From a virus, in the IMG/VR virus record IMGVR_UViG_3300017917_005384, positions 1-64,000 of that record: DNA of 64,000 nucleotides, one strand, 5' to 3'. Below are positions 36,544 through 60,483 of this stretch, one piece after another (position 1 is the first letter of the stretch; every line of letters begins with the position of its first letter). The notes below the pieces were generated by a model. That model was not told where the DNA came from and did no database searches. It worked only from the letters and a program-made list of their open reading frames with translations. Made by a program: the position numbers and the translations under genes.

Positions 36544-37164
36544 ATGCCCACAGAATTAACCGTTGCTATAGTATCATCTGTATTTACTGCTATTATAGGT
36601 CCTATTGCAGTACATTATTTTAAAGAAAAATTAAACAAAAAATCTAAAGATATATTAAAAGAAACCTTAGAAGAAAATACATTAATAATTAATAAATTAG
36701 AAGAAATTAAAAATATCCATAAAGCAGACAGAGTTTGGATAATGCAATTTCATAACGGAGGTAATTTTTACCCAACTGGAAAATCAATCCAGAAATTTAG
36801 CATGTGTTACGAATTAGTAGAATATGGAGTTAGTTCTATTCAACAAAATTTTCAAAATATACCTATTAGCTTATTTAGCAAATCTATAAATCATCTTTTA
36901 GAAGAAGACATAATTGCTATCCCTGATTTTAAGGATGAAACTATACCTACTTATGGGTTAAAATATGTTGCTGAAGAATATGGTTGTAAAAGTGCCTATT
37001 TAGTTGCTATTAAATCTATAGATGGTAAGTATGTAGGAACATTAGGTATAGAATATACTAAACGTAAAACATCTCTTTCTCAAGAAGAAATAAATAACCT
37101 ATGGATTGAATCAACAGCAATAGGTGGGGTATTGATTTCTTCATTCAAAAACAAAACAATATGA
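36544..37164 (+). CDS. Membrane-anchored GAF-like domain protein
   Basis: A 206-residue protein from the ATG (an upstream TTG is less likely). An N-terminal transmembrane helix (VAIVSSVFTAIIGPIAVHYF) and a coiled linker precede a sensor-like domain: ADRVWIMQFHNGGNF, MCYELVEYG, SAYLVAIKSIDGKYVGTLG. This resembles GAF-type folds that bind small ligands. The protein would sit in the host inner membrane with the domain in the cytoplasm. Function unknown. Confidence 0.6.
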   Translation: MPTELTVAIVSSVFTAIIGPIAVHYFKEKLNKKSKDILKETLEENTLIINKLEEIKNIHKADRVWIMQFHNGGNFYPTGKSIQKFSMCYELVEYGVSSIQQNFQNIPISLFSKSINHLLEEDIIAIPDFKDETIPTYGLKYVAEEYGCKSAYLVAIKSIDGKYVGTLGIEYTKRKTSLSQEEINNLWIESTAIGGVLISSFKNKTI

Positions 37165-37409
37165 TTAAGCTAATAGATATGCTAAAAGAACATGAAGAAG
37201 GAGAAGAATATCCTCCTTACATGTATTCATCAGTAGGATTTGGTTGTCATGTATGTGATTATTATTATACAAAAGATGATAAACATATGTGTCGAAATGA
37301 ACATTATCAAGAATTAATGGGTACTGATGAATTAATTAACCCCAAGACTAAAAAACCAATTAAAGATCCATCAAAATATTGTTCAAACTGGTTTGAACCT
37401 AAAAAATAA
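37161..37409 (+). CDS. Leader-bearing Cys-rich small protein
   Basis: An 82-residue protein with leader MIKLIDMLKE followed by an acidic spacer. The mature part has a cysteine pattern (GFGCHVCDYYY, MCRNEH, KYCSNWFEP) that likely binds metal. ATGA overlap with the upstream gene. Confidence 0.65.
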   Translation: MIKLIDMLKEHEEGEEYPPYMYSSVGFGCHVCDYYYTKDDKHMCRNEHYQELMGTDELINPKTKKPIKDPSKYCSNWFEPKK

Positions 37410-37413
37410 TAAT

Positions 37414-38049
37414 ATGAATAAATTAGATATCTATGAAGTTGAAGATTGTGGTTGTTTTGGCCCCAAATTAACTTTAAATGAAGGACAAGATAATATTATG
37501 TTATCTGAAGGATTAAAATACCATATTCAAGAAGGTAGGATGCTTATACATAATATTTATCGCCCATTATCTAAATCCTATTTTGCTTTAGTACGTGAAG
37601 CACGTGATTTATATAATAAAGGATTATTATCTGTAACTGAGGATGATATGGAACTTTTAGAAAGCAATTTAGGTGAATTCGGTATATATAATGGTATTAA
37701 AGTTCCACTTGATTATGTATTTGATATTGATGAAGTTACCAACTATATTAATGAAGCTACTAAAGATAAAAAGAAAACACCCCCATTAGGCAAACCTAAA
37801 CGTGGTGGATCTAAAAAATTCTATGTTTATGTTCGTAAACCAGGTGGAGGAATTAAAAAGGTATCATTTGGAATGGCAGGTGGGGGATTGCGTGCTAAAT
37901 TAAATAACCCAAAAGCACGTCAAGCCTTTGCAAAACGTCATAAATGTTCACAAGCAAAAGATAGAACAACTGCTCGTTATTGGAGTTGTAGACTTCCTCG
38001 TTATGCTAAACTATTAGGCTTCAAAACCAGCTTTAGTGGTTATTGGTAA
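37414..38049 (+). CDS. Virion-type protein with basic C-terminal RYWSCR domain
   Basis: A 211-residue protein from MNKLDIYEVEDCGC. The segment LTLNEGQ near residue 20 has an LNE/G site like the other leaders. The C-terminal ~80 residues are basic: SKKFYVYVRKPGGGIKKVSF, then FAKRHKCSQAKDRTTARYWS followed by CRLPRY. The KRHxC...DRTTARYWSCRLP pattern is familiar from T4-like cyanophage and other large-phage proteins of unknown function. DNA binding inside the head is plausible. Confidence 0.6.
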   Translation: MNKLDIYEVEDCGCFGPKLTLNEGQDNIMLSEGLKYHIQEGRMLIHNIYRPLSKSYFALVREARDLYNKGLLSVTEDDMELLESNLGEFGIYNGIKVPLDYVFDIDEVTNYINEATKDKKKTPPLGKPKRGGSKKFYVYVRKPGGGIKKVSFGMAGGGLRAKLNNPKARQAFAKRHKCSQAKDRTTARYWSCRLPRYAKLLGFKTSFSGYW

Positions 38050-38063
38050 TAAATCGAAAAATC

Positions 38064-38693: not shown

Positions 38694-38697
38694 AATC

Positions 38698-39171: not shown

Positions 39172-39418
39172 AGACATAGAAACTACATCTGAATATATTA
39201 TACGTGAATTTGATGAAAATATAGATCCTATAGAATTATTATGGCATCGTGATGATGAAAATCGCACAATAGAAATCATAGGAAAAACAGATTGGCAACT
39301 GCAGCTTGAAGATCAGTTGCCAACTTCATTGAATCGTCCTATATTTATACCACGTCATATGTGGCATCGTGCTATAAAGGGTACTGGCAAATTGTACTTA
39401 AAAATATATAAATCATGA
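39155..39418 (+). CDS. Cupin-like small protein
   Basis: An 87-residue protein starting MTHPYKDIETTSEYIIREFD, with LLWHRDDENRTIEIIGKTDW and FIPRHMWHRAIKGTGKLYL. Two HxD/HxWH-type metal-ligand motifs on either side of beta strands suggest a cupin fold. Similar WHRDxENR proteins occur in T4-like marine phages (from memory). Overlaps both neighbours by 4-17 bases. Confidence 0.6.
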   Translation: MTHPYKDIETTSEYIIREFDENIDPIELLWHRDDENRTIEIIGKTDWQLQLEDQLPTSLNRPIFIPRHMWHRAIKGTGKLYLKIYKS

Positions 39419-39813
39419 TAAAACTAACAAATATATTATTTGAAATGTTAGACGAGAAAAAAGCAGATCGTTGTAAACGTATTGCTGATCGTCGCTATTC
39501 AAAACCATCTGCTTATAAATCAGGTGCTATTGTGCGTTGCCGTCAAGGTAAAATATGGAAAAATATTAAAGAAAACGAATTAAATGAATTGGGCCCTAAT
39601 GATATTCATTATCAAAACATACTAAACTATTACGATAAATCTAATGATAATGTTAAAAAGAAAATATTAGAAAAATTTAATATTAAAATTATAAAAAATA
39701 AAAGCATATCAGAATATGCTGAAGAATATAAAAAGAAATTAGAAAAAGAATTGTCTGAAATAGGACGAGATGTTTTAGAAATAGAACAAGAATTAGGTAT
39801 ATCATTAAATTAA
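39415..39813 (+). CDS. Leader-bearing basic protein
   Basis: A 132-residue protein, leader MIKLTNILFE, then a Cys/Arg-rich segment ADRCKRIADRRYSKPSAYKS with GAIVRCRQGKIW. The second half is helical and charged. The KADRCxRxADxRY...PSAYxSGAxVRCR pattern is familiar from phage and giant-virus basic proteins. Could bind packaged DNA. Confidence 0.6.
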   Translation: MIKLTNILFEMLDEKKADRCKRIADRRYSKPSAYKSGAIVRCRQGKIWKNIKENELNELGPNDIHYQNILNYYDKSNDNVKKKILEKFNIKIIKNKSISEYAEEYKKKLEKELSEIGRDVLEIEQELGISLN

Positions 39814-39827
39814 AAATAAAAATACAA

Positions 39828-40073
39828 ATGAAAAAATCCGAATTAAAAAGAATCATCAAAGAAACCATATCAGACCTTACTCAAAATAATCTAAATGAAC
39901 AAAATGAAGGTGTTAGACAATATCTAAGACAACTTCAAGATTTTGAAGAAACATATGTTGATACTTTAGATGATTTAGAAAATTTAGCTACTGCTGTTGA
40001 ATCTTTCCATAGAAGTTTAATTAATAGAATTAAACAAGAAAAAGGAAACGTATACGGAGACTGGGAAGCATAA
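39828..40073 (+). CDS. Leader-bearing small helical protein
   Basis: An 81-residue protein with leader MKKSELKRIIKETISDLTQ, followed by a coiled-coil-like stretch (LRQLQDFEETYVDTLDDLEN). The stop and the next ATG overlap by one base. Function unknown. Confidence 0.6.
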   Translation: MKKSELKRIIKETISDLTQNNLNEQNEGVRQYLRQLQDFEETYVDTLDDLENLATAVESFHRSLINRIKQEKGNVYGDWEA

Positions 40074-40366
40074 TGATCAAGTTAACAGACATATTACTTG
40101 AAATAATAAACGAAACAAGATACGAATCAAGTACTCTGAATGAAAAAAAAGAAACTCTTCGTACTTGGTTTAAACGTAAAGGTGCTCCTGGAAAAGTAGG
40201 TGGATGGGTAGATTGCAACACCTGCCGTAAGGTAGATGGTAAAACTAAATGTAAACCATGTGGTAGACAAAAAGGTGAAAAACGTTCTAAGTATCCTTCT
40301 TGCCGTCCCACTCCATCTCAATGTAAACAACCCGGTAAAGGTAAAAAATGGGGTAAAACAAAATAG
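40073..40366 (+). CDS. Leader-bearing Cys/Lys-rich protein
   Basis: A 97-residue protein, leader MIKLTDILLE, then a very basic domain. Cysteine pairs occur in WVDCNTCRKVDGKTKCKPCG, followed by YPSCRPTPSQC. The pattern APGKxGGWVDCNTC...CGRxxGEKRxxYPxCRPTPSxC is widespread in large phages and is of unknown function. Zinc and DNA binding are likely; a packaged nucleoid protein is the natural guess. Confidence 0.65.
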   Translation: MIKLTDILLEIINETRYESSTLNEKKETLRTWFKRKGAPGKVGGWVDCNTCRKVDGKTKCKPCGRQKGEKRSKYPSCRPTPSQCKQPGKGKKWGKTK

Positions 40367-40381
40367 AAATTAAAATTTTAC

Positions 40382-40391
40382 AATATTTATA
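40382..40391 (+). promoter_or_regulatory. Late-type AATATTTATA motif
   Basis: AATATTTATATATATAAAT, 17 bases before the ATG at 40409. Confidence 0.45.
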
Positions 40392-40408
40392 TATATAAAT
40401 TAAACAAA

Positions 40409-40993
40409 ATGAATAATTCTGCATTACGCTTATTTATAAGAAGTATTATAACTGAAGCTAAAGAAAAAAAGGTTGAAAAAGAACCTAAAAAAACTATAAA
40501 AAAAGAAGAAAAAGCTCCAAAAAGTAGTGGTAAATTAGTAGACCTTAAAAAAGAATTAGCTGCTTTAAAACAATATAAAGATGAGCTTCAAGTAGCTAAA
40601 TTTGCAGAAAAAACTGCATCTACTGAGGTTGAATTTGCTGATTTAGCTAAATTTGCTAAAGAATTAGATGCGTTAAAAGCAAAAGGTGTTGCTTTAGAAA
40701 AACAAATTGATGAGAAAATTAAAGAACTTGAAACTCGCATTTCTGATGAAAAAAATAAAATCAAAGAAATGATGGGTCTTACCGCTCCTGAGAAAAAAGG
40801 AGCTAAAAAAATGATGGATGAAAAAAAAGACGAATTAGAAGAAGCTCGTTTTAAAAAAGGTACTGATGTAGGTAAACCTGGTAAAGGATTTGCTAAAATA
40901 GCTAAATCAGCCGCTAAAAAATATGGTTCAAAAGAAGCTGGTCAAAAAGTAGCAGGTGCTGTATTAAAGAAAGTAGTAGCTAAAAACAAATAA
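40409..40993 (+). CDS. Lysine-rich coiled-coil protein with leader
   Basis: A 194-residue protein. The N-terminus MNNSALRLFIRSIITEAKEK contains ITE/A, a cleavage-type site. A lysine/glutamate-rich linker is followed by a long coiled coil (~45-120) and a basic Ala/Lys/Gly tail (FAKIAKSAAKKYGSKEAGQK) similar to histone-H1-like tails. Possibly an internal head protein that condenses DNA. Confidence 0.6.
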   Translation: MNNSALRLFIRSIITEAKEKKVEKEPKKTIKKEEKAPKSSGKLVDLKKELAALKQYKDELQVAKFAEKTASTEVEFADLAKFAKELDALKAKGVALEKQIDEKIKELETRISDEKNKIKEMMGLTAPEKKGAKKMMDEKKDELEEARFKKGTDVGKPGKGFAKIAKSAAKKYGSKEAGQKVAGAVLKKVVAKNK

Positions 40994-40994
40994 T

Positions 40995-41372
40995 ATGGAA
41001 AACAATGCTTTAATGGGCCAATTTGTATCTACATTACTTGCTGCTCGTACACAAGCCCATATATTTCATCTTCAAACACCCTCGTTTGCTGCTCATAAAG
41101 CATTAAATGAATTTTATGATGCTATTGTGGATTTAACAGATAGTATTGTTGAATCTTACCAAGGTAAATATGGTATTATTACTGGATACGGCAATGTTTC
41201 TTTACAAGAATACCAAAGTTGTGAAGGTATTATTATGTACTTTAACACTTTATGTATGTTTGTAGAAAAAAGTAGACAAATGTTAGCTCAAGACTCATAT
41301 ATTCAAAATCAAATTGATGAAGTTGTTGCATTGATCAACTCTACAATTTATAAACTACGCTTTTTAAAATGA
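40995..41372 (+). CDS. Ferritin/Dps-like protein (DUF5856-type)
   Basis: A 125-residue helical protein: FVSTLLAARTQAHIFHLQTP, SFAAHKALNEFYDAIVDLTD, SIVESYQGKYGIITGY. The TQAHIFHxQTxSxAxHKALxxFYDxI pattern is that of a small T4-like phage family related in layout to Dps/ferritin helices (DUF5856 from memory). It may protect or bind DNA. The stop overlaps the next start (ATGA). Confidence 0.65.
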   Translation: MENNALMGQFVSTLLAARTQAHIFHLQTPSFAAHKALNEFYDAIVDLTDSIVESYQGKYGIITGYGNVSLQEYQSCEGIIMYFNTLCMFVEKSRQMLAQDSYIQNQIDEVVALINSTIYKLRFLK

Positions 41373-41707
41373 TAAAATTACTTGATATTCTAGAAAACCT
41401 AGATCCAGTAGGTAAAGAAGATGCTGATATTAATAACGATGGTAAAGTAAATAAAACAGATAAATATTTAGCTAATCGTCGTAAAGCAATAGCTGCTAAT
41501 CTTAAAGAAGGAGATCATGAAGTAGCAATGGCCGTTTCTAGCCTAGAATCAATTGCCAAAGCAATTGTTGAATTAAGACAAAAACTTGGAAATGTTGAAC
41601 GTAACATTCCAGGTTGGATTCAAGATCATATAGCAAAAGCAGAAAACTATATTGAGCAAGCTGCTCAAGGTTTTCATGAATTAAAACATATAGATGAAAA
41701 TAAATAA
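41369..41707 (+). CDS. Leader-bearing EF-hand/dockerin-like protein
   Basis: A 112-residue protein, leader MIKLLDILEN, then a calcium-binding loop-like motif, DADINNDGKVNKTDKYLANR (D-x-N-x-D-G-x-V-x-x-x-D). A helical domain follows (EVAMAVSSLESIAKAIVELR, PGWIQDHIAKAENYIEQAAQ). Same arrangement recurs in marine T4-like phage proteins of unknown role. Confidence 0.65.
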   Translation: MIKLLDILENLDPVGKEDADINNDGKVNKTDKYLANRRKAIAANLKEGDHEVAMAVSSLESIAKAIVELRQKLGNVERNIPGWIQDHIAKAENYIEQAAQGFHELKHIDENK

Positions 41708-41785
41708 ATTACTGTAATTAAAAATAGTAATTTTAATTTTAAAAATCCTTATAGATCATAAAAATAAGGAAAACTAAAGAAACCA

Positions 41786-42358
41786 ATGAGTAAAACATTA
41801 TTATTAGAAAAATATATTAAAGTTGCTGTTCGTAAAGCATTAAAAGAGCAAGAAGAACAACAACGTAAAGCAGAAAAAGCAATATATCTTGTATATCGTT
41901 TTCCTGGTTTGAAAAAAATAATGGAAGACTTAATGTCTCCTGCTTTTGGTCGTTATATTAATGATGTTGATATTGTTGCTCCTAAACCAACAACATTTAA
42001 AATTACCTTAATCAACAATCAAGATTTTACTGTTAAATACCTTGGTAAAGGTAAATTTAACATTAAAGTATCAGGCAAACAATACCATTCAGATAATTTA
42101 GGAGAAGCAGAACGTTGTTCTCAAGCTATAGCTGATTTATTAGAATTAAACTATTCAACAGCAGAAGGTAAAGAACAAACTAGCCCTACTCCAGGAGCAA
42201 CTGAACCTGGTTCTACTTCTCCAACATCTTCAACAGAATTGGGTGCTGCTGAATTAGGTCCTGAATTAGCAGCAGCTGAAGAAACACCACCTCCTACAAC
42301 AGCAAGTACTCCTGAAGAAACACCCGCACCAGAAGAAGAAACACCAGCTGAAGCTTAA
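41786..42358 (+). CDS. Leader-type protein with Pro/Thr/Glu-rich tail
   Basis: A 190-residue protein. The N-terminal helix MSKTLLLEKYIKVAVRKALK ends LKE/Q. A small folded domain (~35-125) is followed by a ~60-residue low-complexity tail of P, T, E, A and S (TPEETPAPEEETPAEA). No family recognised. Confidence 0.6.
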   Translation: MSKTLLLEKYIKVAVRKALKEQEEQQRKAEKAIYLVYRFPGLKKIMEDLMSPAFGRYINDVDIVAPKPTTFKITLINNQDFTVKYLGKGKFNIKVSGKQYHSDNLGEAERCSQAIADLLELNYSTAEGKEQTSPTPGATEPGSTSPTSSTELGAAELGPELAAAEETPPPTTASTPEETPAPEEETPAEA

Positions 42359-43424: not shown

Positions 43425-43811
43425 ATGGAATTTATTACTGAAGTAAAACGTTTACAAAAACTAGCAGGAATATTAACTGAACAAGAAAAACAACCAGAAG
43501 AAGAAATTTCTTCTGCTGATACTCCTGAAACTCCATCTGGTTCTATTACTAAGGCTGAAGCAAAACAGCTTATAAAAGGAACAAAAGGTAAATTCTTTAC
43601 TGTTACTTTCATTAAAAAAGACGGCACTACTCGTGTTATGAATGCCCGTTTAGGTGTAAAAGCATACCTTAAAGGAGGAGAACTTCCTTATGATCCTGAA
43701 GCAAAAGGATTAATACCTGTATTTGATATTCCTAAACGTGAATACAGAATGGTGAATTTAAATACTATTATTAAGTTAAAGATTGGTAATAACGAATACG
43801 ATGTAAAATGA
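43425..43811 (+). CDS. WYL_2/Sm-like SH3 barrel protein with LAGI leader
   Basis: A 128-residue protein from MEFITEVKRLQKLAGILTEQ, a leader of the RxQxLAGI class with an LTE/Q site. After an acidic linker, residues ~40-128 have GKFFTVTFIKKDGTTRVMNA and RLGVKAYLKGGE, the pattern of the Sm-like SH3 barrel (WYL_2, formerly DUF2693) found in many phages. It may bind nucleic acid. The ATG at 43425 was chosen because it begins the leader. Confidence 0.65.
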   Translation: MEFITEVKRLQKLAGILTEQEKQPEEEISSADTPETPSGSITKAEAKQLIKGTKGKFFTVTFIKKDGTTRVMNARLGVKAYLKGGELPYDPEAKGLIPVFDIPKREYRMVNLNTIIKLKIGNNEYDVK

Positions 43812-43862
43812 TTAAACTAATCCACATAAATACGATGTAAAATGATTAAACTAACCCACATA
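43795..43862 (+). repeat. 34-bp tandem duplication over a gene start
   Basis: AATACGATGTAAAATGATTA-type unit at 43795-43828 and again at 43829-43862, 33 of 34 bases identical (T/C difference). Each copy contains the end of the upstream gene, an ATG, and the MIKL leader start. The first copy now encodes a 10-residue remnant, MIKLIHINTM, and the second starts the real gene at 43842. Confidence 0.85.
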
Positions 43863-45881
43863 TTAGAAAATATACTATTTGAATATAGTCAAGCTCAAAT
43901 TGACAAAACTATTAAAAGATGGGAAAATGAACCTAACTTTGATAAAAATGTCGCTTTAAATTTAATAAAAACATTTGATAATAAAAAAAGTGGATTATCA
44001 AGTAAATTAGATTTAGTAGTATTACCTGATAAACTAAAACAAGGGAATAATTATCTTAATATAGATCTATATTCATATGAAGATATGAAACGATTAATAA
44101 ATTCTATCCCTGAAAATCCTGAAACTGTTAAAAAAACAGCTATTAATAGATTTGTAGAGTTATTTGGAATAAATAAACAAACTGCTCAATCATATGTTGC
44201 TCGTTTTTTATATAATAAAGATAAATTAAAATTAGCAGCAAAAGAAGGACTAGAAGATATAGGAGTAACTAAAGAAGAAGTATTAAATTTAATCCCTAAA
44301 AAACTTCAACGAAATGAAGCATTTTTAGATCCACGTAACTGGAATTGGATTTCATTTGAACAAATAACAGATGCTCTATTCCCTAGTCAAAAAACTTCAG
44401 AAGATAATATTAACTTAGCTACTGCAGAAGGTGATAAAGTGTATGATAAAGATGGAATAGAAATATATAAAGGAGATGATATTCAAAAATGTATATCTTA
44501 TAATCCTGTTATAGAAAAAACAAAAAAGAAAAAATACGGGTGGTGTGTAACTCAAGTAGGAAATACTAATTATGATTTTTATAGATTTAAAAATCAAGCC
44601 CCTACTTTTTATTTTGTATTTGATAGAAACAAACCTTCTAGCCCCGAACATGCTCTTTTTGATGATGAATGGCATGCTTTTGTAATACAAGTAACTGCTG
44701 ATAAGAAAACATATATAGTAACAGGAGCTAATAATAGAAGAGATATTGATACTGGAGATAAAGGATGGGAAGGTATAGCAAACATAGTACCTCCTGATAC
44801 ATGGAATAAAATTAAAAATTTAAAAGATTATTTTGTACCTGTACCCTTATCTGCTGTAGAAAGAGCAAGAAAATATGCTTCTGGGATGGATTTATCTTTA
44901 GATGAATTTAAAGAACTTTCTCAAGATGAAAAGATATTATATATACAAGGAAAAGCTTCTAAAAATCAAATATCTACTGATATTTTAAAAATCTTACCAA
45001 AATATAAAATATCATATCAGGGTAAAACTACAACATTAGCTAATATTGCTATAGATAGTGGACAAGAAATTCCTTATTCTGTATTGAAAGATAACGAAGC
45101 TTTAGCTAAAAGATATGCTATATTTAGATTTAGACATACTAATTATGGTAATTTACCTATTCCCCTTCCTTTTGTAAAATATTTAGACGAACCTGCTAAA
45201 GAAAAATATTTAAAAACATTCGATAATAATCTTACATTTGAATATATAGAGAAATATTTTGGAGAAAAATCAGCTCAAAAATATGTAAATGAACAAATCA
45301 AAACTCTTAACTATCTCCCCCCAGGTGCTATAAAATATATTACAGATCCTAAAATAAAAGATTTATATTTATCTTATAGTAAATTATTCAAAAATTGGCA
45401 AAATTCGGCTAATACTAATATTGATGAAGAAAGATTAGAAAATTCAAAACAAATGCCTATACAGGAAATCGATCCTGTTCCTATAATGTATGATGATTGG
45501 AAAGAATTTTCTAATAAAGAAAAACAAATTATATATAATTTAGCAAAAACTGCAGATAACAATACGGAAGAATATTTAACAGTTAGTTATGCTGTACCCT
45601 TCTTTTTACAAGATGGTGAACAAAAATACGCTCTACTCCCAGAAGATGATACTTATGAAAATTGGGTAATAACCGATATGAATGGAAATATAATATCCGA
45701 ATTTAAATCAATCGAATCTATATCATTAAAAAATAAACCTGTATATGGTGGTTACCCAGATTATAGTAATATAGAAAATGCTAAAAGGATATATAAATTG
45801 TCTGATTTGCAGATAAATGGTAAACCTGTTTCTTTAAAAGAAATAAAACGTATATTAAAATTAGCAGGAATATTACGTTAA
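43842..45881 (+). CDS. Large leader-bearing protein, 679 aa
   Basis: Leader MIKLTHILENILFE with ILE and LFE sites. Residues ~215-320 contain KYGWCVTQVGNTNYDFYRFK, then TFYFVFDRNKPSSPEHALFD and DEWHAFVIQVTADKKTYIVT. This WCxxxxxxxNYxxxY...YFVxD...HAxF pattern is a recurrent domain in large-phage proteins, of unknown function. The rest is helical repeats. The C-terminus EIKRILKLAGILR repeats the LAGI motif of the leaders. A candidate packaged protein. Confidence 0.65.
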   Translation: MIKLTHILENILFEYSQAQIDKTIKRWENEPNFDKNVALNLIKTFDNKKSGLSSKLDLVVLPDKLKQGNNYLNIDLYSYEDMKRLINSIPENPETVKKTAINRFVELFGINKQTAQSYVARFLYNKDKLKLAAKEGLEDIGVTKEEVLNLIPKKLQRNEAFLDPRNWNWISFEQITDALFPSQKTSEDNINLATAEGDKVYDKDGIEIYKGDDIQKCISYNPVIEKTKKKKYGWCVTQVGNTNYDFYRFKNQAPTFYFVFDRNKPSSPEHALFDDEWHAFVIQVTADKKTYIVTGANNRRDIDTGDKGWEGIANIVPPDTWNKIKNLKDYFVPVPLSAVERARKYASGMDLSLDEFKELSQDEKILYIQGKASKNQISTDILKILPKYKISYQGKTTTLANIAIDSGQEIPYSVLKDNEALAKRYAIFRFRHTNYGNLPIPLPFVKYLDEPAKEKYLKTFDNNLTFEYIEKYFGEKSAQKYVNEQIKTLNYLPPGAIKYITDPKIKDLYLSYSKLFKNWQNSANTNIDEERLENSKQMPIQEIDPVPIMYDDWKEFSNKEKQIIYNLAKTADNNTEEYLTVSYAVPFFLQDGEQKYALLPEDDTYENWVITDMNGNIISEFKSIESISLKNKPVYGGYPDYSNIENAKRIYKLSDLQINGKPVSLKEIKRILKLAGILR

Positions 45882-45946: not shown

Positions 45947-46804
45947 ATGATTAAGCTTTTAAATATATTACGTGAAATATTATTACAAGAACTAATTGAC
46001 AAGGAAGGTCATTTTCAGTTTCGTATATCAGAAAGAGGTAATGTGTTAGATATATTAAATTTGAATGATATTCCTCTTAAAGATTATAAATTTACTGAAG
46101 TAAAGGAAAAACTTAAAACTAATATTTCAACTGAATTGAAAGATAGAGCTGAAAGAATATTAGAGAAAGATATACCCTCATCTATTACTTATGGTATAGG
46201 TATTAAAATACTTAAACCTGTATTAGTAGTTGATGGAGAAAAATATCCTCTTAAACTATATGCTATATCAACTAAGGAAAAAAAAGACAAAGATGGAAAT
46301 GTTATTGAAAAAATAAAAAAAGATAACATAGGTACATTATATTTTGCTGTTGTTTCCGATAATGAAGCAAAAACATTAATGTTAGTAAATAAAGAAGATG
46401 ATAATGATTTATATTTTCAAATAAAGAATCATATAAATAGAAAAGGAGGATATAAAGAAGCTAAAATTTTAACCCCACCGAATTATATCTATGAAATAGA
46501 TTTAGATGAATTGATGACAGGTATAAGTAAAACAAATCAAAATATAAATTTGATTGATCCTGCTACATTAGAATATACATTAAGAACAGATTATAGAAAA
46601 GATGCCAAATTTGTCCATAAAAAATATGGTACTGGAACAATCATCAATACATCATCAGGAAGTGGTGGAAAAGGAGATAGTAAAGGGAAACTAGATTGGA
46701 TAGAAGTAGATTTTGGTAAACCTGTAGTAAAAGGAGGTAAACTAATACCATATCGTAGAATTGAAAACATATTAACATTAGTATCTCCTTTAATTAAAAA
46801 ATAA
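45947..46804 (+). CDS. Leader-bearing protein, 285 aa
   Basis: Leader MIKLLNILREILLQE (LRE/I). An alpha/beta domain follows. The C-terminal part has KFVHKKYGTGTIINTSSGSG and a later WIEVDFGKPVV, a small barrel-type segment resembling KYGxGxI-type domains found in DNA-repair helicases and phage proteins. Function unknown. Confidence 0.6.
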   Translation: MIKLLNILREILLQELIDKEGHFQFRISERGNVLDILNLNDIPLKDYKFTEVKEKLKTNISTELKDRAERILEKDIPSSITYGIGIKILKPVLVVDGEKYPLKLYAISTKEKKDKDGNVIEKIKKDNIGTLYFAVVSDNEAKTLMLVNKEDDNDLYFQIKNHINRKGGYKEAKILTPPNYIYEIDLDELMTGISKTNQNINLIDPATLEYTLRTDYRKDAKFVHKKYGTGTIINTSSGSGGKGDSKGKLDWIEVDFGKPVVKGGKLIPYRRIENILTLVSPLIKK

Positions 46805-46851: not shown

Positions 46852-47361
46852 ATGGAACAACACATTAATGAAATTCGTAGAATGCAACAATTAGCAGGTA
46901 TTAATGAAATTAAAGTATCTCAACCGACAAATTCAAAAAATAATAATATTAGTTTATATAATTTTTTAAATAGACATATTGAAGAATTTGCTAAAGATCA
47001 ACTTCAAACAAATGAAAATTTATCAATATTTGTTTTTAATGAATATTATAATTGGGATACTAATCCTGCAAATTTAGAAGATGAAAATTATCCATACGAT
47101 ACAGAATTTAAAGATATGCCTCAACCTATTCAACAAGATATGATAAATTATTTAGTAGAAAAAGGATTAGAATATTATGGGGAATGGAAATCAGAAGAAG
47201 ATAACGATAAAACTTACGGAATAGAATGGAATTTAGATTACGGTATGGTATATAATTGGACAAATAAAGCCTACCCAGGACCTGCAGAAGATTTGCATCA
47301 TGGTTGGATTGAACAAAAGTTTAAAGGAATAATATTTTATGTTTTATATTTTAATGTATAG
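46852..47361 (+). CDS. LAGINE-leader protein, 169 aa
   Basis: The first 20 residues, MEQHINEIRRMQQLAGINEI, form the LAGINE leader, followed by KVSQPTNSKNNN as a flexible linker. The cargo is acidic and aromatic-rich (GIEWNLDYGMVYNWTNKAYP). No family recognised. Confidence 0.65.
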   Translation: MEQHINEIRRMQQLAGINEIKVSQPTNSKNNNISLYNFLNRHIEEFAKDQLQTNENLSIFVFNEYYNWDTNPANLEDENYPYDTEFKDMPQPIQQDMINYLVEKGLEYYGEWKSEEDNDKTYGIEWNLDYGMVYNWTNKAYPGPAEDLHHGWIEQKFKGIIFYVLYFNV

Positions 47362-47967: not shown

Positions 47968-48279
47968 ATGAAAAAACATATTAACGAAATTTATAGAATG
48001 CAGCAATTAGCTGGTATTAATGAAATACGAGTAGCAACTCCTGGAAAGAGTCACTATTTGAATTTTTCTCAAAATGATGTAATTAATATTTTAACTAATA
48101 ACGAAATAGATATAGATGATGAAGAAGGAATAGATACAGATTCAGAAGAATGGATGGATGTGTTAAGTGATATAATTGGAAAAAATGCATATGATCAAGA
48201 TAATTGGACTGAAGAGGATCATATGAAAGTTGGAAAATTTATAAAGGTTGTGGAAGAAATGGGCATTGAATTTATATAA
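47968..48279 (+). CDS. LAGINE leader fused to early-gene domain
   Basis: A 103-residue protein. Leader MKKHINEIYRMQQLAGINEI, a linker, then EEWMDVLSDIIGKNAYDQDN, which matches residues ~33-52 of the early protein at 11016. 75 bases are identical between 48145-48219 and 11112-11186. This shows a recent transfer of the cargo domain onto a leader. Function unknown. Confidence 0.7.
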   Translation: MKKHINEIYRMQQLAGINEIRVATPGKSHYLNFSQNDVINILTNNEIDIDDEEGIDTDSEEWMDVLSDIIGKNAYDQDNWTEEDHMKVGKFIKVVEEMGIEFI

Positions 48280-48316: not shown

Positions 48317-48628
48317 ATGAAACAATATATTAACAAACATAGAATGCAGCAGCTAGCTGGTATTAATGAAATCAAAGTATCTCAACCTGTTAGAATGTGG
48401 GATTGGAATATTGAAGAATTTGGTTATTATGATCCATTAAATAAAACATTTACAGTAGAATCAGGAGATGCATTTGCTGATTATATGGATACAGAATTTC
48501 CTGATTGGCTTAATAATGAATATGTTGCTAAAAAAGGAATAGAAAAATACACTAAAGATATTAAAAACGCGGTAAAAAAAGAATACGGTTCTGATGTAAC
48601 AATTATAGGAGATAATTTTTCATATTAA
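48317..48628 (+). CDS. LAGINE-leader protein, 103 aa
   Basis: Leader MKQYINKHRMQQLAGINEIK, one residue shorter than its relatives, then VSQPVRMWDW as linker. The cargo has EFPDWLNNEYVAKKGIEKYT and ends in a short beta segment. No family recognised. Confidence 0.65.
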   Translation: MKQYINKHRMQQLAGINEIKVSQPVRMWDWNIEEFGYYDPLNKTFTVESGDAFADYMDTEFPDWLNNEYVAKKGIEKYTKDIKNAVKKEYGSDVTIIGDNFSY

Positions 48629-48765: not shown

Positions 48766-49290
48766 ATGGAACAAAAGAAAATTGTAATTATTGGAGCAGG
48801 AGTAGCAGGTATCAACGCTGCTACTAAACTAGTTGATAACGGTTATCCGGGTGAATTAATCACAATTATAGATAAAGGTAATGACCCACATAACCGCTTA
48901 CCTGAAGAAGTAATGACAGGTATGTTAGGTGCCGGTGGTTGGAGTGATGGTAAATTAACTTATCACACTGCTATTGGTGGTCAGTTATCTAAATATTGTG
49001 GTGAAGAAAAAGCAATGGAATTAATGGATCAAGTTATTTCTAATTTTAGACGTTTTCATCCTAAACCAGAAGAAATATTCTGTTCTGATCCTCAGGAAGA
49101 ACCTGAATTTATTAAACCATATTTTGGTTTGAGAATGTTCCCTGTATGGCATATTGGAAGTAATTATCTTCATCTCATTGCTTGTAAATGGTACGAATAT
49201 TTATTATCGAAGGGAGTGAATTTCATGTGGAATACTGAAGTCACAGATATAAACTTTGATACTAATGAAATCGAATTTAAAACAAACTAG
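48766..49290 (+). pseudogene. FAD-dependent dehydrogenase, N-terminal fragment
   Basis: Encodes 174 residues. IVIIGAGVAGINAATKLVDN (residues ~6-25) is a Rossmann FAD-binding motif, and GAGGWSDGKLTYHTAIGG (~56-73) is typical of the COG2509-type FAD-dependent dehydrogenases. The frame ends at EFKTN and continues logically in the fragment at 50325 (KIKYDSLIFAVGKSG). A 1-kb insertion with a homing endonuclease and an acetyltransferase gene separates the halves. The enzyme would be inactive unless the halves assemble in trans. Confidence 0.75.
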
Positions 49291-49921
49291 AATCTATATT
49301 TACTTCTTAGAAAAGAATAATAATGTCTTTTATGTTGGTAAAACAAAAAATCCTAAACGTAGAGAATATGATTGGAAAAGAGAATTTGGAGAAGACATTA
49401 ATTTTAATTTAGTAGATGAAATAGAAGATAATAAAATAATATGGAAATTTTGGGAAAATTATTGGATTCAACAATTTAAACAGTGGGGTTTTAATTTAAT
49501 TAACCAAAACGAAGGTGGTGGTGGTTTAGATAAACATTCTGATGAAACTATTGAAAAAATTAGATCTAAAAAAATAGGTGTAAAACAAAATAGAACTAAA
49601 ATTAGAAAAGATAAAGGATTAAAACATAATAAACAACAAGGTATTAAGATTGGTCGTCCTGAAGGATTTAGATACAGTGAAGAACTTAAATTACATTTAA
49701 GTAATAAAATGAAAGGACGTTCAAAACATACTGAAGAAGGAAAATATAAATTTGTAGATAATAAGGTTTATTCTTTTATTAATATAGATACTAATGAAGA
49801 ATTTAATGGTATTAGATATGATTTTCAAAAGAAATATAATTTAAAATATAAAGGAATATATAATTTAATAACAAGTAAAGCAAAAACATATAAAAGATGG
49901 AAAATAAAAGAATTAAATTAA
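49256..49921 (+). CDS. GIY-YIG homing endonuclease
   Basis: A 221-residue protein. IYIYFLEKNNNVFYVGKTKN followed by PKRRE is a GIY-YIG core. The C-terminal half has basic NUMOD-type DNA-binding segments (GRPEGFRYSEELKLHLSNKM, YSFINIDTNEEFNGI). It begins inside the 3' end of the first dehydrogenase fragment. An internal later start is possible, because the first residues (MILMKSNLKQ) are encoded by the host gene's sequence in another frame. Confidence 0.8.
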   Translation: MILMKSNLKQTRIYIYFLEKNNNVFYVGKTKNPKRREYDWKREFGEDINFNLVDEIEDNKIIWKFWENYWIQQFKQWGFNLINQNEGGGGLDKHSDETIEKIRSKKIGVKQNRTKIRKDKGLKHNKQQGIKIGRPEGFRYSEELKLHLSNKMKGRSKHTEEGKYKFVDNKVYSFINIDTNEEFNGIRYDFQKKYNLKYKGIYNLITSKAKTYKRWKIKELN

Positions 49922-50313
49922 TAGATTTATTAGAAGAAACAATAAATTGGGATAGAGCATCTGAATTTTATGATACTGGCAATTATGTGACTATAAATAA
50001 AGGTTATGGTATTATAGAGTTTGGTCTAGAAACACTATCAGATGGAGAAGAAGCATTATTCATTAATGATATTTCTATTAAACCGGAATTTCAAGGAAAA
50101 GGATATGGTTCTAAAATTATTCAAAGTGCTATAGAATATGCTAAAGAGCAAGGAATACCAGTAGCATTAAGAGCATCCGTAGGAGGGCATTATAATACAA
50201 ATAGTAATATGTCACAAGAAGATTTGATTAAATTTTATAAAAAATTTGGATTTGAAAATAGACCAGATCTATCAAATTTTGGGCACGATGATATTTTTAT
50301 GGTTAAATTTTAA
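49897..50313 (+). CDS. GNAT acetyltransferase with MIKL-type leader
   Basis: A 138-residue protein. The N-terminus MENKRIKLIDLLEETINW contains IKLIDLLEE, the MIKLxDIL-type leader with an LLE site. GNAT motif A, ISIKPEFQGKGYGSKIIQSA (QGKGYG acetyl-CoA loop), is followed by FYKKFGFENR. Its start overlaps the endonuclease gene by 25 bases. It would acetylate a protein or small molecule, possibly after injection into the host (inference). Confidence 0.75.
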   Translation: MENKRIKLIDLLEETINWDRASEFYDTGNYVTINKGYGIIEFGLETLSDGEEALFINDISIKPEFQGKGYGSKIIQSAIEYAKEQGIPVALRASVGGHYNTNSNMSQEDLIKFYKKFGFENRPDLSNFGHDDIFMVKF

Positions 50314-50324
50314 AAATAAATAAT

Positions 50325-51104
50325 ATGAAAAAAATAAAATACGACTCTCTTATATTTGCTGTAGGCAAATCAGGTATTGATTTTGCACAACAACTATCAA
50401 ATGATTATAAACTACCAACTGAACCTAAATCAGTTCAAATAGGTGTTCGTTTTGAAGCACCACAAAAATACTTCCAGAAATTGATTGATGTATCTTATGA
50501 CTTTAAACTCTATCAAAAATTTGATAATGTATCTCTACGTTCATTCTGTACTAACAATAATGCAGCTTATGTGGCTGTTGAAGAGACTTATGGGGATATA
50601 AGTTATAACGGTCATGCTAAGAAAGGTGAAGAATTTCGTAATGATATGACTAATTTTGGTATCTTGATGGAAATTAAAGGTATTGAGAATCCATTTGAGT
50701 GGTCACGTAATGTAGTTAAAAAACTACAGGTTGATGATTATGGAGGAATATATTATAGCCCTGATAAAGATCGTATGCCTTCTCTTACATCTGAAGGAGC
50801 ACCTATCAAAACATTTAAAGTAGATAATTTAGGATTATTTAAATACGCAATGGGAGAATATGCCCAATATATAATTGATTTTATCGAACAAATGAATAAA
50901 ATATTTCATTTTGGTAATGAATATGGTTTTTATGCTCCTGAAGTAAAATATCTTAGCCCTGAGCCTCTAGTAGATTATTCGAATCTTGCATTGGTTAATT
51001 TTCCTAATATTCACTTTGTAGGTGATGCTTTAAGTGCTCGTGGTATTACAGTAAGTGGAGCGCAAGGGATATATGTAGCTGAAAGTATATTAAAAAAAGT
51101 ATAA
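50325..51104 (+). pseudogene. FAD-dependent dehydrogenase, C-terminal fragment
   Basis: Encodes 259 residues with its own ATG. KYDSLIFAVGKSGIDFAQQL and the end FVGDALSARGITVSGAQGIY (the terminal GD...G...A FAD-contact motif) are the second half of the same dehydrogenase family. Clean start and stop codons mean a stable fragment may still be made. Not obviously decayed, which suggests a recent insertion or trans-complementation. Confidence 0.75.
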
Positions 51105-51146: not shown

Positions 51147-51638
51147 ATGAAAAAATCAGAACTAAGACAAATAATCAAGGAAGAAATTACCAAAGTATTA
51201 AATGAATTTGAAGATTTATCTATTAAAAATAATTATCTAGACAAAAATTTTTATGACCCTATAACAAAAGAATACTCAGAAGATGTAGTAGTGGATAGTA
51301 ATAAAATATTTAAAGATTTATTAAAAACCAAAGTATATTATAAATCAAAATTACCATTATATCAAAACAATAAACCATTAACTGACTCTCAAATAGACTC
51401 ACTAATTGATACATTTGCTGCTAATGAAAGAGATATCATGATTTCTGACATACCTGATATAGATAAAGTAAAATGGATAAATAAATGGAAAAGGGTAGAT
51501 CTAGATGATTTAACTGATAATTTTATAAGTTTTGTAGAGGGTATATCTGAAAATTGGGAAGAATGGGAATTCCATGATGTTAATCAAACACGATATTCTG
51601 ATAATTATCCATCAGAAAATAAATGGAACCAACTTTAA
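51147..51638 (+). CDS. MKKSELRQIIKEE-leader protein, 163 aa
   Basis: Leader MKKSELRQIIKEEITKVLNE, then an acidic, mostly helical cargo (PITKEYSEDVVVDSNKIFKD, ENWEEWEFHDVN). No family recognised. The next gene has an almost identical leader but unrelated cargo. Confidence 0.65.
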   Translation: MKKSELRQIIKEEITKVLNEFEDLSIKNNYLDKNFYDPITKEYSEDVVVDSNKIFKDLLKTKVYYKSKLPLYQNNKPLTDSQIDSLIDTFAANERDIMISDIPDIDKVKWINKWKRVDLDDLTDNFISFVEGISENWEEWEFHDVNQTRYSDNYPSENKWNQL

Positions 51639-51661: not shown

Positions 51662-52618
51662 ATGAAAAAATCAGAACTAAGACAAATAATTAGAGAAGAA
51701 TTACAAAAACTAGCTGAAACACCTCAATATGAAAAACAACCTGTAGATGAAGGTTGGAAAGAAAATGCTATGGCTTTAGCATTAACTGCTGCTAGTATGA
51801 TAGGAGGGGGTAAAAAAGCAAAAGGACAAGATATCCTACAAAAATCTCCCGTTGCTGCTGCTACTGTTAAACAAACACAAGATACATTATCTGTTAATTT
51901 TAATGATAATTTTAAAAGCGGTAGATATACTCTTAGTGCTGAATCATCAAAAGATATAGTAGAAAAATTAAGAGCTATAGGCAACTTTATTAGAAATAAC
52001 CCAAATAATAATATTAAAATAAGTATCATTTCAAGTGAATCTAAAGTTCCTAATTATGATAAAGAACCTTCATCTTCTACTTATAATTCTCGCTTAAACA
52101 CAGGTGAATTAGCTAGTAAAAGATCAGCTTCAATGAAATATACCATTCAAACTTTACTCAAAGATTTGGAAAAAAATGGTGTAGATACTAGTAAAGTAAC
52201 TTTTGAACCTGCTCAAAATTTAGTTGGAGGACCAGAATGGAAACAAGGAATGTCACCTTCTGATTCTCAATTTGTCAAACATCAGTTTGTTAAAGTTGTT
52301 ATATCTTTATCTGATGAAAACAAAGTTGACTATTCTGCTTTTGCTAAAGAAGGAGAAAGTTATTTTGACGCTAACGACCATTTAACTGCTATAGTATTTT
52401 ACAGAACAAGAGAAGCATATGATAGATCTCAATCTGGCCTAGTAGATACAGGCCGTGAAGATGTTTTAGTAAGATTTGTAGATAAAAATGGAAAATTTAT
52501 AGGAGAAGATTATTTATTGGATAATAGCTGGTGGAATACTAATAAAAATATTAGCAGTGAAATGACTTCTGAATTTAAAGAAAAAATTATTAAGAACGGA
52601 AAACGAGTTAAACCATAA
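51662..52618 (+). CDS. Leader-bearing OmpA-like protein
   Basis: A 318-residue protein from MKKSELRQIIREELQKLAE. The frame is open from 51623, but the shared leader fixes the start. A short hydrophobic stretch (NAMALALTAASMIGGG) could be a membrane segment. Residues ~75-220 resemble an OmpA-like peptidoglycan-binding domain: NFKSGRYTLSAESSKDIVEK, NIKISIISSES, LASKRSASMKYTIQTLL. It might anchor a packaged or injected protein to the cell wall. Confidence 0.6.
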   Translation: MKKSELRQIIREELQKLAETPQYEKQPVDEGWKENAMALALTAASMIGGGKKAKGQDILQKSPVAAATVKQTQDTLSVNFNDNFKSGRYTLSAESSKDIVEKLRAIGNFIRNNPNNNIKISIISSESKVPNYDKEPSSSTYNSRLNTGELASKRSASMKYTIQTLLKDLEKNGVDTSKVTFEPAQNLVGGPEWKQGMSPSDSQFVKHQFVKVVISLSDENKVDYSAFAKEGESYFDANDHLTAIVFYRTREAYDRSQSGLVDTGREDVLVRFVDKNGKFIGEDYLLDNSWWNTNKNISSEMTSEFKEKIIKNGKRVKP

Positions 52619-53991: not shown

Positions 53992-54342
53992 ATGAAACAA
54001 CCAATTAATGAAATTAAAAGAATGCAGCAACTAGCGGGCATTAATGAAATTAAAATACCTACACCTGGAGGTAAAGATGGAGTATTATATAGGAAATTAA
54101 AAAATGCAGGTTTATTTGATAAATATTTTGATATTTATGAAATTTACGATTATGGAACAGCTTTACAAGAAATAGAAGCGTATGAAATACAAAATAATTT
54201 AGCTTATGAAATAGCAAAAGAAAAAGGATTTAAAGGTAGTTTTGGTGATCTTGTCAATAATGAAGAATTAAATTCAGAGTTGAATCGTTTAGCTGATAGT
54301 TTTGTAAAACAATTTGCTAAAGAAAAATTTAATATAACTTAA
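53992..54342 (+). CDS. LAGINE-leader protein, 116 aa
   Basis: Leader MKQPINEIKRMQQLAGINEI, then KIPTPGGKDG as linker, close to the PTPG/TPGK linker of the gene at 47968. The cargo is helical (YEIAKEKGFKGSFGDLVNNE). No family recognised. A strong terminator follows. Confidence 0.65.
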   Translation: MKQPINEIKRMQQLAGINEIKIPTPGGKDGVLYRKLKNAGLFDKYFDIYEIYDYGTALQEIEAYEIQNNLAYEIAKEKGFKGSFGDLVNNEELNSELNRLADSFVKQFAKEKFNIT

Positions 54343-56018: not shown

Positions 56019-56022
56019 AATA

Positions 56023-56047
56023 GGCAAAGTTATCTTGTTAAATTTAT
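56023..56047 (+). promoter_or_regulatory. Early-type promoter for MoxR-type ATPase
   Basis: GGCAAAG at 56023 and TAAATTTAT at 56039. It gives the ATPase gene at 56071 its own start in addition to read-through from the VWA gene. Confidence 0.6.
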
Positions 56048-56070
56048 CTAAACAAAAATAAATAGGTTAT

Positions 56071-57255: not shown

Positions 57256-57256
57256 T

Positions 57257-58267: not shown

Positions 58268-58275
58268 TATTTATT
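58266..58275 (+). promoter_or_regulatory. Late-type GATATTTATT motif
   Basis: Overlaps the upstream stop codon and lies 24 bases before the ATG at 58300. Confidence 0.35.
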
Positions 58276-58299
58276 GTCAAATACAATAAAATACTAAAC

Positions 58300-58773
58300 A
58301 TGAAAAAAACTGAATTATTATCTTTAATAAGAGAAGAACTTAAATTAGAGATGGCTGCTATTGCATCTGGATTAAAATTAGCCGATAATTGGAAAGAATT
58401 ATGGGAGACTGTACCTGAATCTATTAAATTATCAACACGATATAAGCGTATAATTGATTTTTTAGAAGAAAACGGAACTGGAACTCTTAAAGATATTGCT
58501 ATAGAAAAATTTAATTCAACCGACACAGCAGTATGTAACCAATTAGTAAAAAGATTAAAAGAACTAGGTATAGTAGAAAGTACAGGATATGTTAGAGAAC
58601 CTAAATATAAAGAAAAAACTACTACTCCTGGAGCATTTGGTCGTCCTAAACTAACAGATGAAAATGTTAAAATGTTAGGTTTAAATATAGTTAGAAAGTT
58701 TAGTAAAGGTTTAACTGATTTTACGGATGAAGAAAAAGAGTTAATACAAAATATGTATAATTCTATTAAATAA
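58300..58773 (+). CDS. Leader-bearing winged-helix protein
   Basis: A 157-residue protein. Leader MKKTELLSLIREELKLEM. Residues ~35-90 (YKRIIDFLEENGTGTLKDIA, CNQLVKRLKELGIVESTG) look like a winged-helix DNA-binding domain, also found in the gene at 59485. An extension follows (EKTTTPGAFGRPKLTDENVK). The stop overlaps the next start. Confidence 0.6.
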   Translation: MKKTELLSLIREELKLEMAAIASGLKLADNWKELWETVPESIKLSTRYKRIIDFLEENGTGTLKDIAIEKFNSTDTAVCNQLVKRLKELGIVESTGYVREPKYKEKTTTPGAFGRPKLTDENVKMLGLNIVRKFSKGLTDFTDEEKELIQNMYNSIK

Positions 58774-59240
58774 TGGCTAAATATAAAAAAATAGTTCTTT
58801 TAAGTTGTGTTGCAACTAAATTACCTCATGCTGCTCCGGCTGAAGAACTATATAATTCTCCTTTATTTAAAAAATCATTAGAATATGCTAAATCATTAAA
58901 TCCAGATGATATAGTAATATTATCTGCTAAACATTATGTTTTACCGTTACGGAAAGTTATTAAACCTTATGATAAAACATTATTGAATATGCCTAGTGAA
59001 GAAATACAAGAATGGGCAGTACAGGTATTAAAAATATTAGCAGATAAATATAATTTAGAAAAAGATCATTTTATAATATTAGCAGGAGATAAATACAGAA
59101 AATATATAACTCCTCAAATAACACATTGGAGTGCTCCGCTAAAAGGATTAAGAATTGGGCAACAACTATCCTGGTATTCTAAAAAAATTGCTAAATTAGT
59201 AAAAGAAGGCTTAACCAAATTATTAAATTTATTTAAATGA
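58773..59240 (+). CDS. DUF6884-type protein
   Basis: A 155-residue protein: IVLLSCVATKLPHAAPAEEL, YNSPLFKKSLEYAK, IVILSAKHYVLPLRKVIKPY. The C-x-x-x-K...PAxxLYxSxLFKKSxxYA...LSAKxxxL...PYDxTL pattern is that of small DUF6884 proteins. Related larger folds occur in queuosine/7-deazaguanine-type DNA modification enzymes, but that link is only inference. Confidence 0.65.
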   Translation: MAKYKKIVLLSCVATKLPHAAPAEELYNSPLFKKSLEYAKSLNPDDIVILSAKHYVLPLRKVIKPYDKTLLNMPSEEIQEWAVQVLKILADKYNLEKDHFIILAGDKYRKYITPQITHWSAPLKGLRIGQQLSWYSKKIAKLVKEGLTKLLNLFK

Positions 59241-59479
59241 AAAAAATAGCTAAATTAATGGAAATGTATAAAGAAGATGCATACCATTATGATGATTTTA
59301 ATGATAATCAAATATCAAAAACTTTAAATAAATTAAATGAATCTATTTCAATTTTAGAAGAACATACAGTAAAATCATACGCCCAAACTATTAATGAATT
59401 TAAAAATTCATTACAGAGTAATGAAGAAAAAGAAATTATGGATGATTTTATACAATATTGTAAATATTATAACAAATAA
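59237..59479 (+). CDS. Small helical protein, 80 aa
   Basis: Starts MKKIAKLMEMYKEDAYHYDD; the first residues include LME/M. Two long helices. ATGA overlap with the upstream gene. No family recognised. Confidence 0.55.
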   Translation: MKKIAKLMEMYKEDAYHYDDFNDNQISKTLNKLNESISILEEHTVKSYAQTINEFKNSLQSNEEKEIMDDFIQYCKYYNK

Positions 59480-59484
59480 TAAAA

Positions 59485-60483
59485 ATGAAAGTTAAACAAC
59501 TACGTGAACTAATTCGTGAAGCAATCCATGAAACATTAAAAGAAGCTGAAATTTCTCCACAAGAAAAAGCAGCTAAAGATGCTGAAATAAATTCCATAAA
59601 TAAACAAATTCAAGCTTTACAAGCTAAAAAATCTGATCTTTCTTCAGGACGTGCATCTGTAGTATCTGAAACTGGATTAAAAGAAATGGCTCGTACACCC
59701 ATTAAATATAAATTATCTGATAATTATCAAGATAAAGTTTCTCAATTACCTTATGCTGGCTCTGAAAAAAGAATGAAATGGATAAATGGTATTATTGATT
59801 ACATTAGTCAAGAAGGATCAACAGATATTACATCAGTAGCTAAAAATAAATTTAACGTTCCTCAACCTCGTATAGCAGATTATGCTAGAGATATGATTCG
59901 TTTAGGTATTCTTGAACCAGAAACCTCAGGAGTTGTACCACAATTTATGCAATCTAACGATAAAGAAAAAACAACAGATGATTCAGAATCATCTACATTA
60001 GATATGGGAAATTTATCAAAATATTTCTCACCAGTTTCTAATGATGATAATGGAAATGAAGAAGATTTTAATACTGAAGAAGAACCTACAATAGGTGATA
60101 TAGATAATAAACCTGTATCTACTTCTAGTATGTCTGATGAAGACTATAATGCATGGGATAAGTATTATGACTTAAAAACTAAACTAAATGGTGTTAAATC
60201 AGATTTGAATAAAATAACTCGTAGTAAAAAAAGAGGTAGTGTTGCTGGTGATATTAAAGATAAACCATCTACTGAAGAACAACGCTTACGTGATTTGAAA
60301 AAATCCTTAGAAGATAGAATCAATACTTTAGTACAAAATTCTGATTATTTAAAGAAAAAAACCGGACAAGAAACAACACCCACTCCTGAAATAGAAGATA
60401 TTGAAGATGATGAAACAATAGATGAATCTTTCGACTCATATCAACTTAGAAAAATGCAATACTACGCTGGTATTAAAAAATAA
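59485..60483 (+). CDS. Leader-bearing winged-helix protein with LAGI-type tail
   Basis: A 332-residue protein. Leader MKVKQLRELIREAIHETLKE (IRE/A site). A short coiled coil and a winged helix (MKWINGIIDYISQEGSTDIT, IADYARDMIRLGILEPETSG, ~90-150) precede an acidic disordered region and a second coiled coil. The C-terminus YQLRKMQYYAGIKK resembles the RMQQLAGI motif. May be a packaged DNA-binding protein. Confidence 0.6.
   Translation: MKVKQLRELIREAIHETLKEAEISPQEKAAKDAEINSINKQIQALQAKKSDLSSGRASVVSETGLKEMARTPIKYKLSDNYQDKVSQLPYAGSEKRMKWINGIIDYISQEGSTDITSVAKNKFNVPQPRIADYARDMIRLGILEPETSGVVPQFMQSNDKEKTTDDSESSTLDMGNLSKYFSPVSNDDNGNEEDFNTEEEPTIGDIDNKPVSTSSMSDEDYNAWDKYYDLKTKLNGVKSDLNKITRSKKRGSVAGDIKDKPSTEEQRLRDLKKSLEDRINTLVQNSDYLKKKTGQETTPTPEIEDIEDDETIDESFDSYQLRKMQYYAGIKK

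Follow-up and report, generated by a model that had tools for sequence, protein, structure and literature searches.

Putative cleavable capsid-loading tags in a T4-like virus that resemble termini of its own head-assembly proteins

Cargo can be directed into the capsid of phage P22 by engineered fusion to a docking segment, the C-terminus of the scaffold protein. In bacteriophage T4, the unrelated proteins IP1–3 and Alt share a short N-terminal leader, the capsid-targeting sequence (CTS, MKTYQEFIAE), which ends in LxE and is processed by the S77 protease gp21; residues 4 and 7 of this leader target the protein and residues 8 and 10 govern processing (PMC9026906). IP1–3 share only the leader and each block a distinct restriction enzyme (PMC12373910), and the T4 scaffold and core proteins are mostly degraded and expelled (PMC9026906). 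In an excerpt of PMC5694885 the T4 vertex protein gp24 is described as having a short N-terminal propeptide that gp21 removes, and in excerpts of that paper and of PMC7411985 the prohead protease of the giant phages SPN3US and phiKZ removes N-terminal propeptides that are thought to target ejection proteins; most of these exceed 100 residues, the site in SPN3US is AxE, and no small interchangeable set of tags is described in these excerpts. Here we analyze a 64,000-nucleotide stretch of viral DNA (the window, bases 1–64000 of the 155,189-bp virus record IMGVR_UViG_3300017917_005384, hereafter G000) in which many otherwise unrelated proteins begin with one of a few short leaders. We consider it quite probable that these leaders are cleavable, modular capsid-loading tags that mimic the docking peptides of head assembly and are cut by the prohead protease, the new element being that at least one tag, and probably two, appear to copy docking termini of the head-assembly machinery.

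The G000 terminase is 54% identical to that of Flavobacterium phage immuto and 49% identical to that of Microcystis phage Mel-JY01, which places G000 among the T4-like myoviruses, presumably with a host in the Bacteroidota. The head gene cluster lies directly past the end of the window, begins with the portal gene at 63584 and continues with 65516, 66367, 67203, 67711, the prohead protease (68826), 70254, 70673, the scaffold (71424) and the capsid gene (72541), an order that matches 20-67-68-21-22-23 of T4. The prohead protease, which the preliminary description had proposed to look for, is present; it belongs to family S77 (68826–69440, E value 1.8e-31) and has the conserved segments GELxHPE and SSRG with the His and Ser motifs.

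Three leader families recur in G000, namely class A (MIKLxDILxE), class B (MKKSELRxIIKE) and class C (INEIxRMQQLAGIxE), and 26 otherwise unrelated proteins start with one of them, so that, as in a CTS system, the same short N-terminal leader stands on several unrelated protein bodies. Leaders are found on 19 of the 45 genes of an island at 34.1–62.0 kb that adjoins the terminase gene, as opposed to 7 of 167 genes elsewhere (p ~1e-9), and they are nearly absent from the regions for tail, replication, and glycosyltransferases. The seven genes outside the window, 67203 (class B), 70254 and 70673 (class C), and 78672, 79015, 106252, and 117803 (class A), are located near the prohead protease and head genes or further along the record. 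A regular expression for class A matches 13 G000 proteins, always within 12 residues of the start and never elsewhere, and the class C core occurs at five N-termini and two extreme C-termini. Among pairs of N-terminal 25-mers, 69 score 35 or more, compared with 12 pairs for residues 31–55 and 13 for C-termini. Because the class A leaders use varied synonymous codons (TTA, CTA, and CTT for Leu; ATT, ATA, and ATC for Ile; AAA and AAG for Lys), they are kept as protein sequence and not as a recent DNA repeat.

Sequence comparison identifies the class C leader with the tail at the C-terminus of the scaffold, a protein encoded at the position of T4 gene 22. Among 80 loci chosen by similarity of the capsid protein, with no use of the motif, the gene immediately upstream of the capsid gene ends in [RK][MWF]QxLAG[IL] in 71 of 77 cases by regular expression, the other six being near variants, and [ILV]xE stands just ahead of this tail in nearly all 77. 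When a profile of these tails, whose members were likewise picked by gene position and not by motif, was compared with the G000 and immuto proteomes, its top 11 hits were two scaffolds, matched at their C-termini, followed by nine N-terminal leaders (E values from 1e-14 to 0.19; best shuffled sequence 0.43; noise below). A class C-like core is also found at the C-terminus of two window proteins, 43842 and 59485, and is conserved there in their homologs. Whereas the P22 scaffold fusion is engineered, the scaffold tail apparently serves here as a natural, cleavable N-terminal tag on many genes. As a side observation, the C-termini of gp22 from T4 (VYAKVASRF) and from P-SSM4 (YVDALARWSK) may correspond distantly to the RMQKLAGIK tail, in which case docking by way of the scaffold tail could be general among T4-like phages; reuse of the P-SSM4 tail as a leader was rejected, as a pattern search for it matched only the P-SSM4 gp22 and one unrelated site.

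For class B, the resemblance is to the N-terminus of a conserved small head-core protein (G000 66367, immuto gp072), whose gene lies between portal and protease and thereby occupies the gp67/68 position. A profile of the N-terminus of this protein, with members chosen by homology of the body, retrieves class B leaders, and the result was unchanged after the profile was rebuilt without four contaminating capsid sequences. The junction behind the leader of the core protein, E/xSTTGTGA, is closely similar to the one behind the capsid propeptide, which ends in QL(V/I)xE ahead of an S/A-x-TG segment (QLVVE/xSxTGTGA), and this likeness points to a shared protease site. The longer segment xSTTGTGASFTPG, common to the families of 66367 and capsid 72541 after the cut, suggests in addition that the protease reads the downstream side.

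In length and hydrophobic register, class A agrees with the T4 CTS (hydrophobic residues at positions 4, 7, and 8, an acidic residue at 6, and E10) and with the gp24 propeptide MAKINELLRE, the sole match in the T4 genome to a class A pattern that was generalized after gp24 had been seen. We regard this as a resemblance and not as proof of homology, and class A as a strict homolog of the gp24 propeptide was rejected, since the pattern match is post hoc and a class A profile fails to score gp24. The preliminary description had held that two leader classes are unlike T4 beyond the cleavage site. Classes B and C are indeed not similar to the T4 CTS, and class A is similar in register only, but the idea that they have nothing in common with capsid biology fails on the matches to the scaffold tail and the head-core N-terminus. 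The T4 CTS system and the present one both place a short N-terminal leader that ends in LxE on unrelated proteins and have an S77 protease, but here the leader families number four or more, compared with one in T4, a single genome has many more cargos, two families match head-assembly termini, and the scaffold-tail family is also usable as a C-terminal tag.

The search for the leader families in relatives that had been proposed was productive, as DNA patterns for each class scanned over IMG/VR located them in hundreds of viral contigs. Class A was found in 102 stretches, with 104 of 104 DNA matches to MIKLxDILxExI at or near the start of an open reading frame (ORF), and class B in at least 120, where practically every match opens an ORF; of 123 class C matches, 84 lie at the extreme C-terminus of an ORF, 36 are N-terminal leaders and three are neither. 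Reversed class A and class C patterns gave no matches, compared with 102 and at least 120 for the forward patterns. When N-terminal patterns were counted without supervision and ranked by how many distinct cargos carry them, classes A, B, and C came out on top and a fourth family, D (MDNFDLRKYLAE), appeared; the loci had been collected with the class A–C patterns, which biases the ranks of these three but not that of D. Family D, M(D/E)NFDLRKYLAE(G/N)KL, stands on cargo of many kinds in immuto (NC_055915) and in contigs L234, L232, L298, and L341, frequently on several neighboring genes in a row, and immuto gp069, which adjoins the protease, has the related start MENNFDIHKW. Immuto, which was isolated on Flavobacterium sp. 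LMO8, has leader genes at 24569–24994 (class A), 25061–25456 and 111675–112139 (class C), 102294–102869, 102880–103359, and 113188–113946 (class B), and 103806–104354 (D-like) of its record. An S77 protease was detected in 18 of 21 large leader contigs and in 2 of 14 controls (p 5e-5), which had been chosen by an arbitrary 15-mer and are smaller on average, somewhat weakening the contrast. The (L/I)xE site follows the motif shortly in 72 of 76 class C leaders, where it was not part of the search. Overall, 0.97–1.00 of leader proteins have it at the end of the leader compared with 0.17–0.29 in internal segments; for classes A and B this frequency is in part a product of the search pattern, and for class C and a second class B site at position 20 it is independent of it. 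A tblastn search of annotated phages with a 26-aa class C leader gave no match, the query being too short, and the string RMQKLAGI was not found in a text search of a literature collection.

Homologous cargo with a different leader class was identified repeatedly across contigs: 41369 (A/C), 46852 (C/A), 43425 (C/B), 70673 (C/A), 39415 (A/D), and immuto gp095 (B/D). In most of these pairs the homology of the cargo starts no more than a few residues from the predicted cut, and for 43425 about 6–20 residues later. Contig L390 has an ORF of 249 aa in which two cargos are joined in one reading frame, the first behind a class A-like leader and the second behind an internal class C leader; its product is possibly a polyprotein that the prohead protease splits. 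The leaders of the window, all of which were found where the preliminary description had placed them, and the tentative members are as follows.

34132–35889 (+), tentative; R-S-E type ADP-ribosyltransferase-like C-terminal domain, whose homolog in L140 directly follows a class A leader in the same protein
37161–37409 (+), class A leader MIKLIDMLKE; 82-aa protein with Cys
37414–38049 (+), tentative; Cys-rich protein of a widespread family whose homologs start with varied class B-like helices
38698–39171 (+), class A leader MIKLLDILKE; 157-aa protein, close homolog in L203 also class A
39415–39813 (+), class A leader MIKLTNILFE; homologous cargo in L234 has class D (66% identity over 47 aa)
39828–40073 (+), class B leader MKKSELKRIIKE; 81-aa protein
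40073–40366 (+), class A leader MIKLTDILLE; basic Cys-rich protein
40409–40993 (+), probable class B-like leader MNNSALRLFIRSIITE, then AKE; homologs start MTINEIRQAVREVIAEAKE and similar
41369–41707 (+), class A leader MIKLLDILE; cargo homolog in L256 (79% identity over 100 aa) has class C
41786–42358 (+), tentative leader MSKTLLLEKYIKVAVRKALKE; N-termini of homologs variable
43425–43811 (+), class C leader MEFITEVKRLQKLAGILTE; cargo homolog in L256 (76% identity) has class B
43842–45881 (+), class A leader MIKLTHILENILFE; 679-aa protein with a class C-like tag at its other end
45837–45878 (+), class C-like C-terminal tag KEIKRILKLAGILR of the 43842 protein; homologs end in RAGVLK, RAGIIK, and KLAGLL
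45947–46804 (+), class A leader MIKLLNILRE; 285-aa protein
46852–47361 (+), class C leader MEQHINEIRRMQQLAGINE; cargo homolog in L149 has class A MIKLTDILNE, junction NE/IK
47968–48279 (+), class C leader MKKHINEIYRMQQLAGINE
48317–48628 (+), class C leader MKQYINKHRMQQLAGINE
49897–50313 (+), class A-type leader MENKRIKLIDLLEE; GNAT acetyltransferase, homolog in L202 begins MIKLIDILKE
51147–51638 (+), class B leader MKKSELRQIIKE
51662–52618 (+), class B leader MKKSELRQIIRE; 318-aa protein, true start within the ORF at 51623
53992–54342 (+), class C leader MKQPINEIKRMQQLAGINE
58300–58773 (+), class B leader MKKTELLSLIRE
59485–60483 (+), class B leader MKVKQLRELIREAIHETLKE; 332-aa protein with a class C-like C-terminal tag
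60445–60480 (+), C-terminal tag LRKMQYYAGIKK of the 59485 protein; homologs end in MQYYAGIIK, LQYRAGIIR, and RFQKLANIIK

Four genes, 34132, 37414, 40409, and 41786, had been listed on an early (L/I)xE only; judging by homologs, 40409 is supported as a variant of class B, and 41786 and 37414 are plausible members. As a criterion of membership (L/I)xE alone was rejected, because 56 of 186 non-leader genes of G000 (30%) have one at residues 8–30. The gene at 17974, proposed as a related leader gene, was not accepted; 17974–18327 and its immuto counterpart 81525–81944 encode a conserved tail-cluster protein with an N-terminal helix MKVDTFKRLIKEAVSEAVREEL that resembles class B. Window positions 130–4142 contain MORN-like repeat paralogs in tandem (YWExYYxNGQLxxKGHYKDG) and a second paralogous set that ends in MDEIAAKFGIPVxQLKIKK.

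Searches of the cargo against Pfam and PHROGs identified almost nothing except the GNAT acetyltransferase at 49897. For the proposed ADP-ribosyltransferase-like cargo, the motifs RGT, SWS, and ExE are present, but support from the fold is weak: the model of the domain has a pLDDT of 58 and its best PDB matches, KptA and PARP10, are not significant (E value 0.03). The model of the 679-aa protein encoded at 43842 (pLDDT 74) has no meaningful structural match, homologs of the 59485 cargo were not found in annotated phages, and the other cargo includes basic Cys-rich proteins and many proteins without assigned function. With its ADP-ribosyltransferase theme and its small basic proteins, the cargo is reminiscent of Alt and the IP proteins of T4 (PMC9026906), and blocking of restriction enzymes is a plausible role for some cargo by analogy. 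Within window positions 48766–51104, the ORFs at 48766–49290 and 50325–51104, read by eye, look like two halves of one FAD-dependent oxidoreductase that is split by a GIY-YIG-like endonuclease ORF (49256–49921) and the leader-bearing GNAT gene.

We propose that a phage protein, presumably expressed late, would carry a probably helical terminal peptide of 10–20 residues as a mimic of a docking peptide from one of the phage's head-assembly proteins: the scaffold C-tail (class C), the start of the gp67/68-position core protein (class B), or a T4-type 10-residue propeptide (class A). The tag would seat the cargo in the prohead core, and the S77 prohead protease would cut after (L/I/V)xE at the border of tag and cargo, freeing the cargo within the head, from which it may be injected with the DNA. 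Packaging, cleavage, the binding partner, late expression, and injection are all steps that we infer. The capsid-targeting claim of the preliminary description gains support at the sequence level from the S77 protease, from leaders that match head-protein termini, from LxE at the junction, and from exchange near that junction; it is weakened for members listed on LxE alone. Several observations weigh against this proposal. Two families have a C-terminal tag, which may not be removed there; scaffold tail and leader do not co-vary strictly within genomes, the scaffold often having RWQ and the leaders RMQ or RLQ; and the scaffolds of T4 and P-SSM4 are without the LAGI tail. A T4-type late promoter TATAAATA stands upstream of 3 of 26 leader genes compared with 10 of 185 others, which is not significant, no S77 protease was detected in 3 of the 21 large leader contigs, and E10 of class A belonged to the pattern used for collection.

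It is unlikely, although conceivable, that the tag serves to dock core components or chaperones needed in assembly only, in which case the tagged proteins would be broken down or expelled afterward and would not reach the host. The tags do match scaffold and core proteins, which in T4 mostly meet this fate (PMC9026906), and many cargos are small, basic or acidic, and without a recognizable enzyme domain; however, some are enzyme-like, as is T4 Alt (the GNAT at 49897 and the ADP-ribosyltransferase-like motif), and these sit in the variable island and not in the conserved core. We consider it very improbable that the leaders are a general docking helix, for a membrane, a polymerase, or another phage structure, that head proteins happen to use too: class B is a simple amphipathic helix with a similar N-terminus in the tail-cluster gene 17974 and its immuto counterpart 81525, but class C is specifically the scaffold tail, the leaders end in (L/I)xE, and the prohead protease is strongly associated with leader contigs. 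That the shared starts are gene duplications or DNA-level recombination hot spots without a selected protein function can practically be dismissed, as recombination must have moved leaders among cargo but the peptide is kept within one genome while its synonymous codons vary widely, and identical peptides persist over hundreds of divergent contigs.

On the preferred reading of the leaders as capsid-loading tags, we lean, with less assurance, toward a broader proposal, namely that a T4-like clade runs a general capsid cargo code of interchangeable tags that copy the scaffold C-tail, the core N-terminus, and a vertex- or CTS-type propeptide, N-terminal with a protease site or C-terminal, by which any accessory protein could be sent into the head and possibly on to the host; the choice of tag may set the prohead layer or the copy number. 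The match of class C to the scaffold tail proposes a docking partner, which the excerpted literature leaves at "the core." T4 is the main detailed case of capsid targeting, with one leader for few proteins, whereas here the tags are readable from sequence across hundreds of uncultivated viral contigs. If the proposal is correct, many "hypothetical" phage genes would become predicted virion cargo and candidate early-acting effectors.

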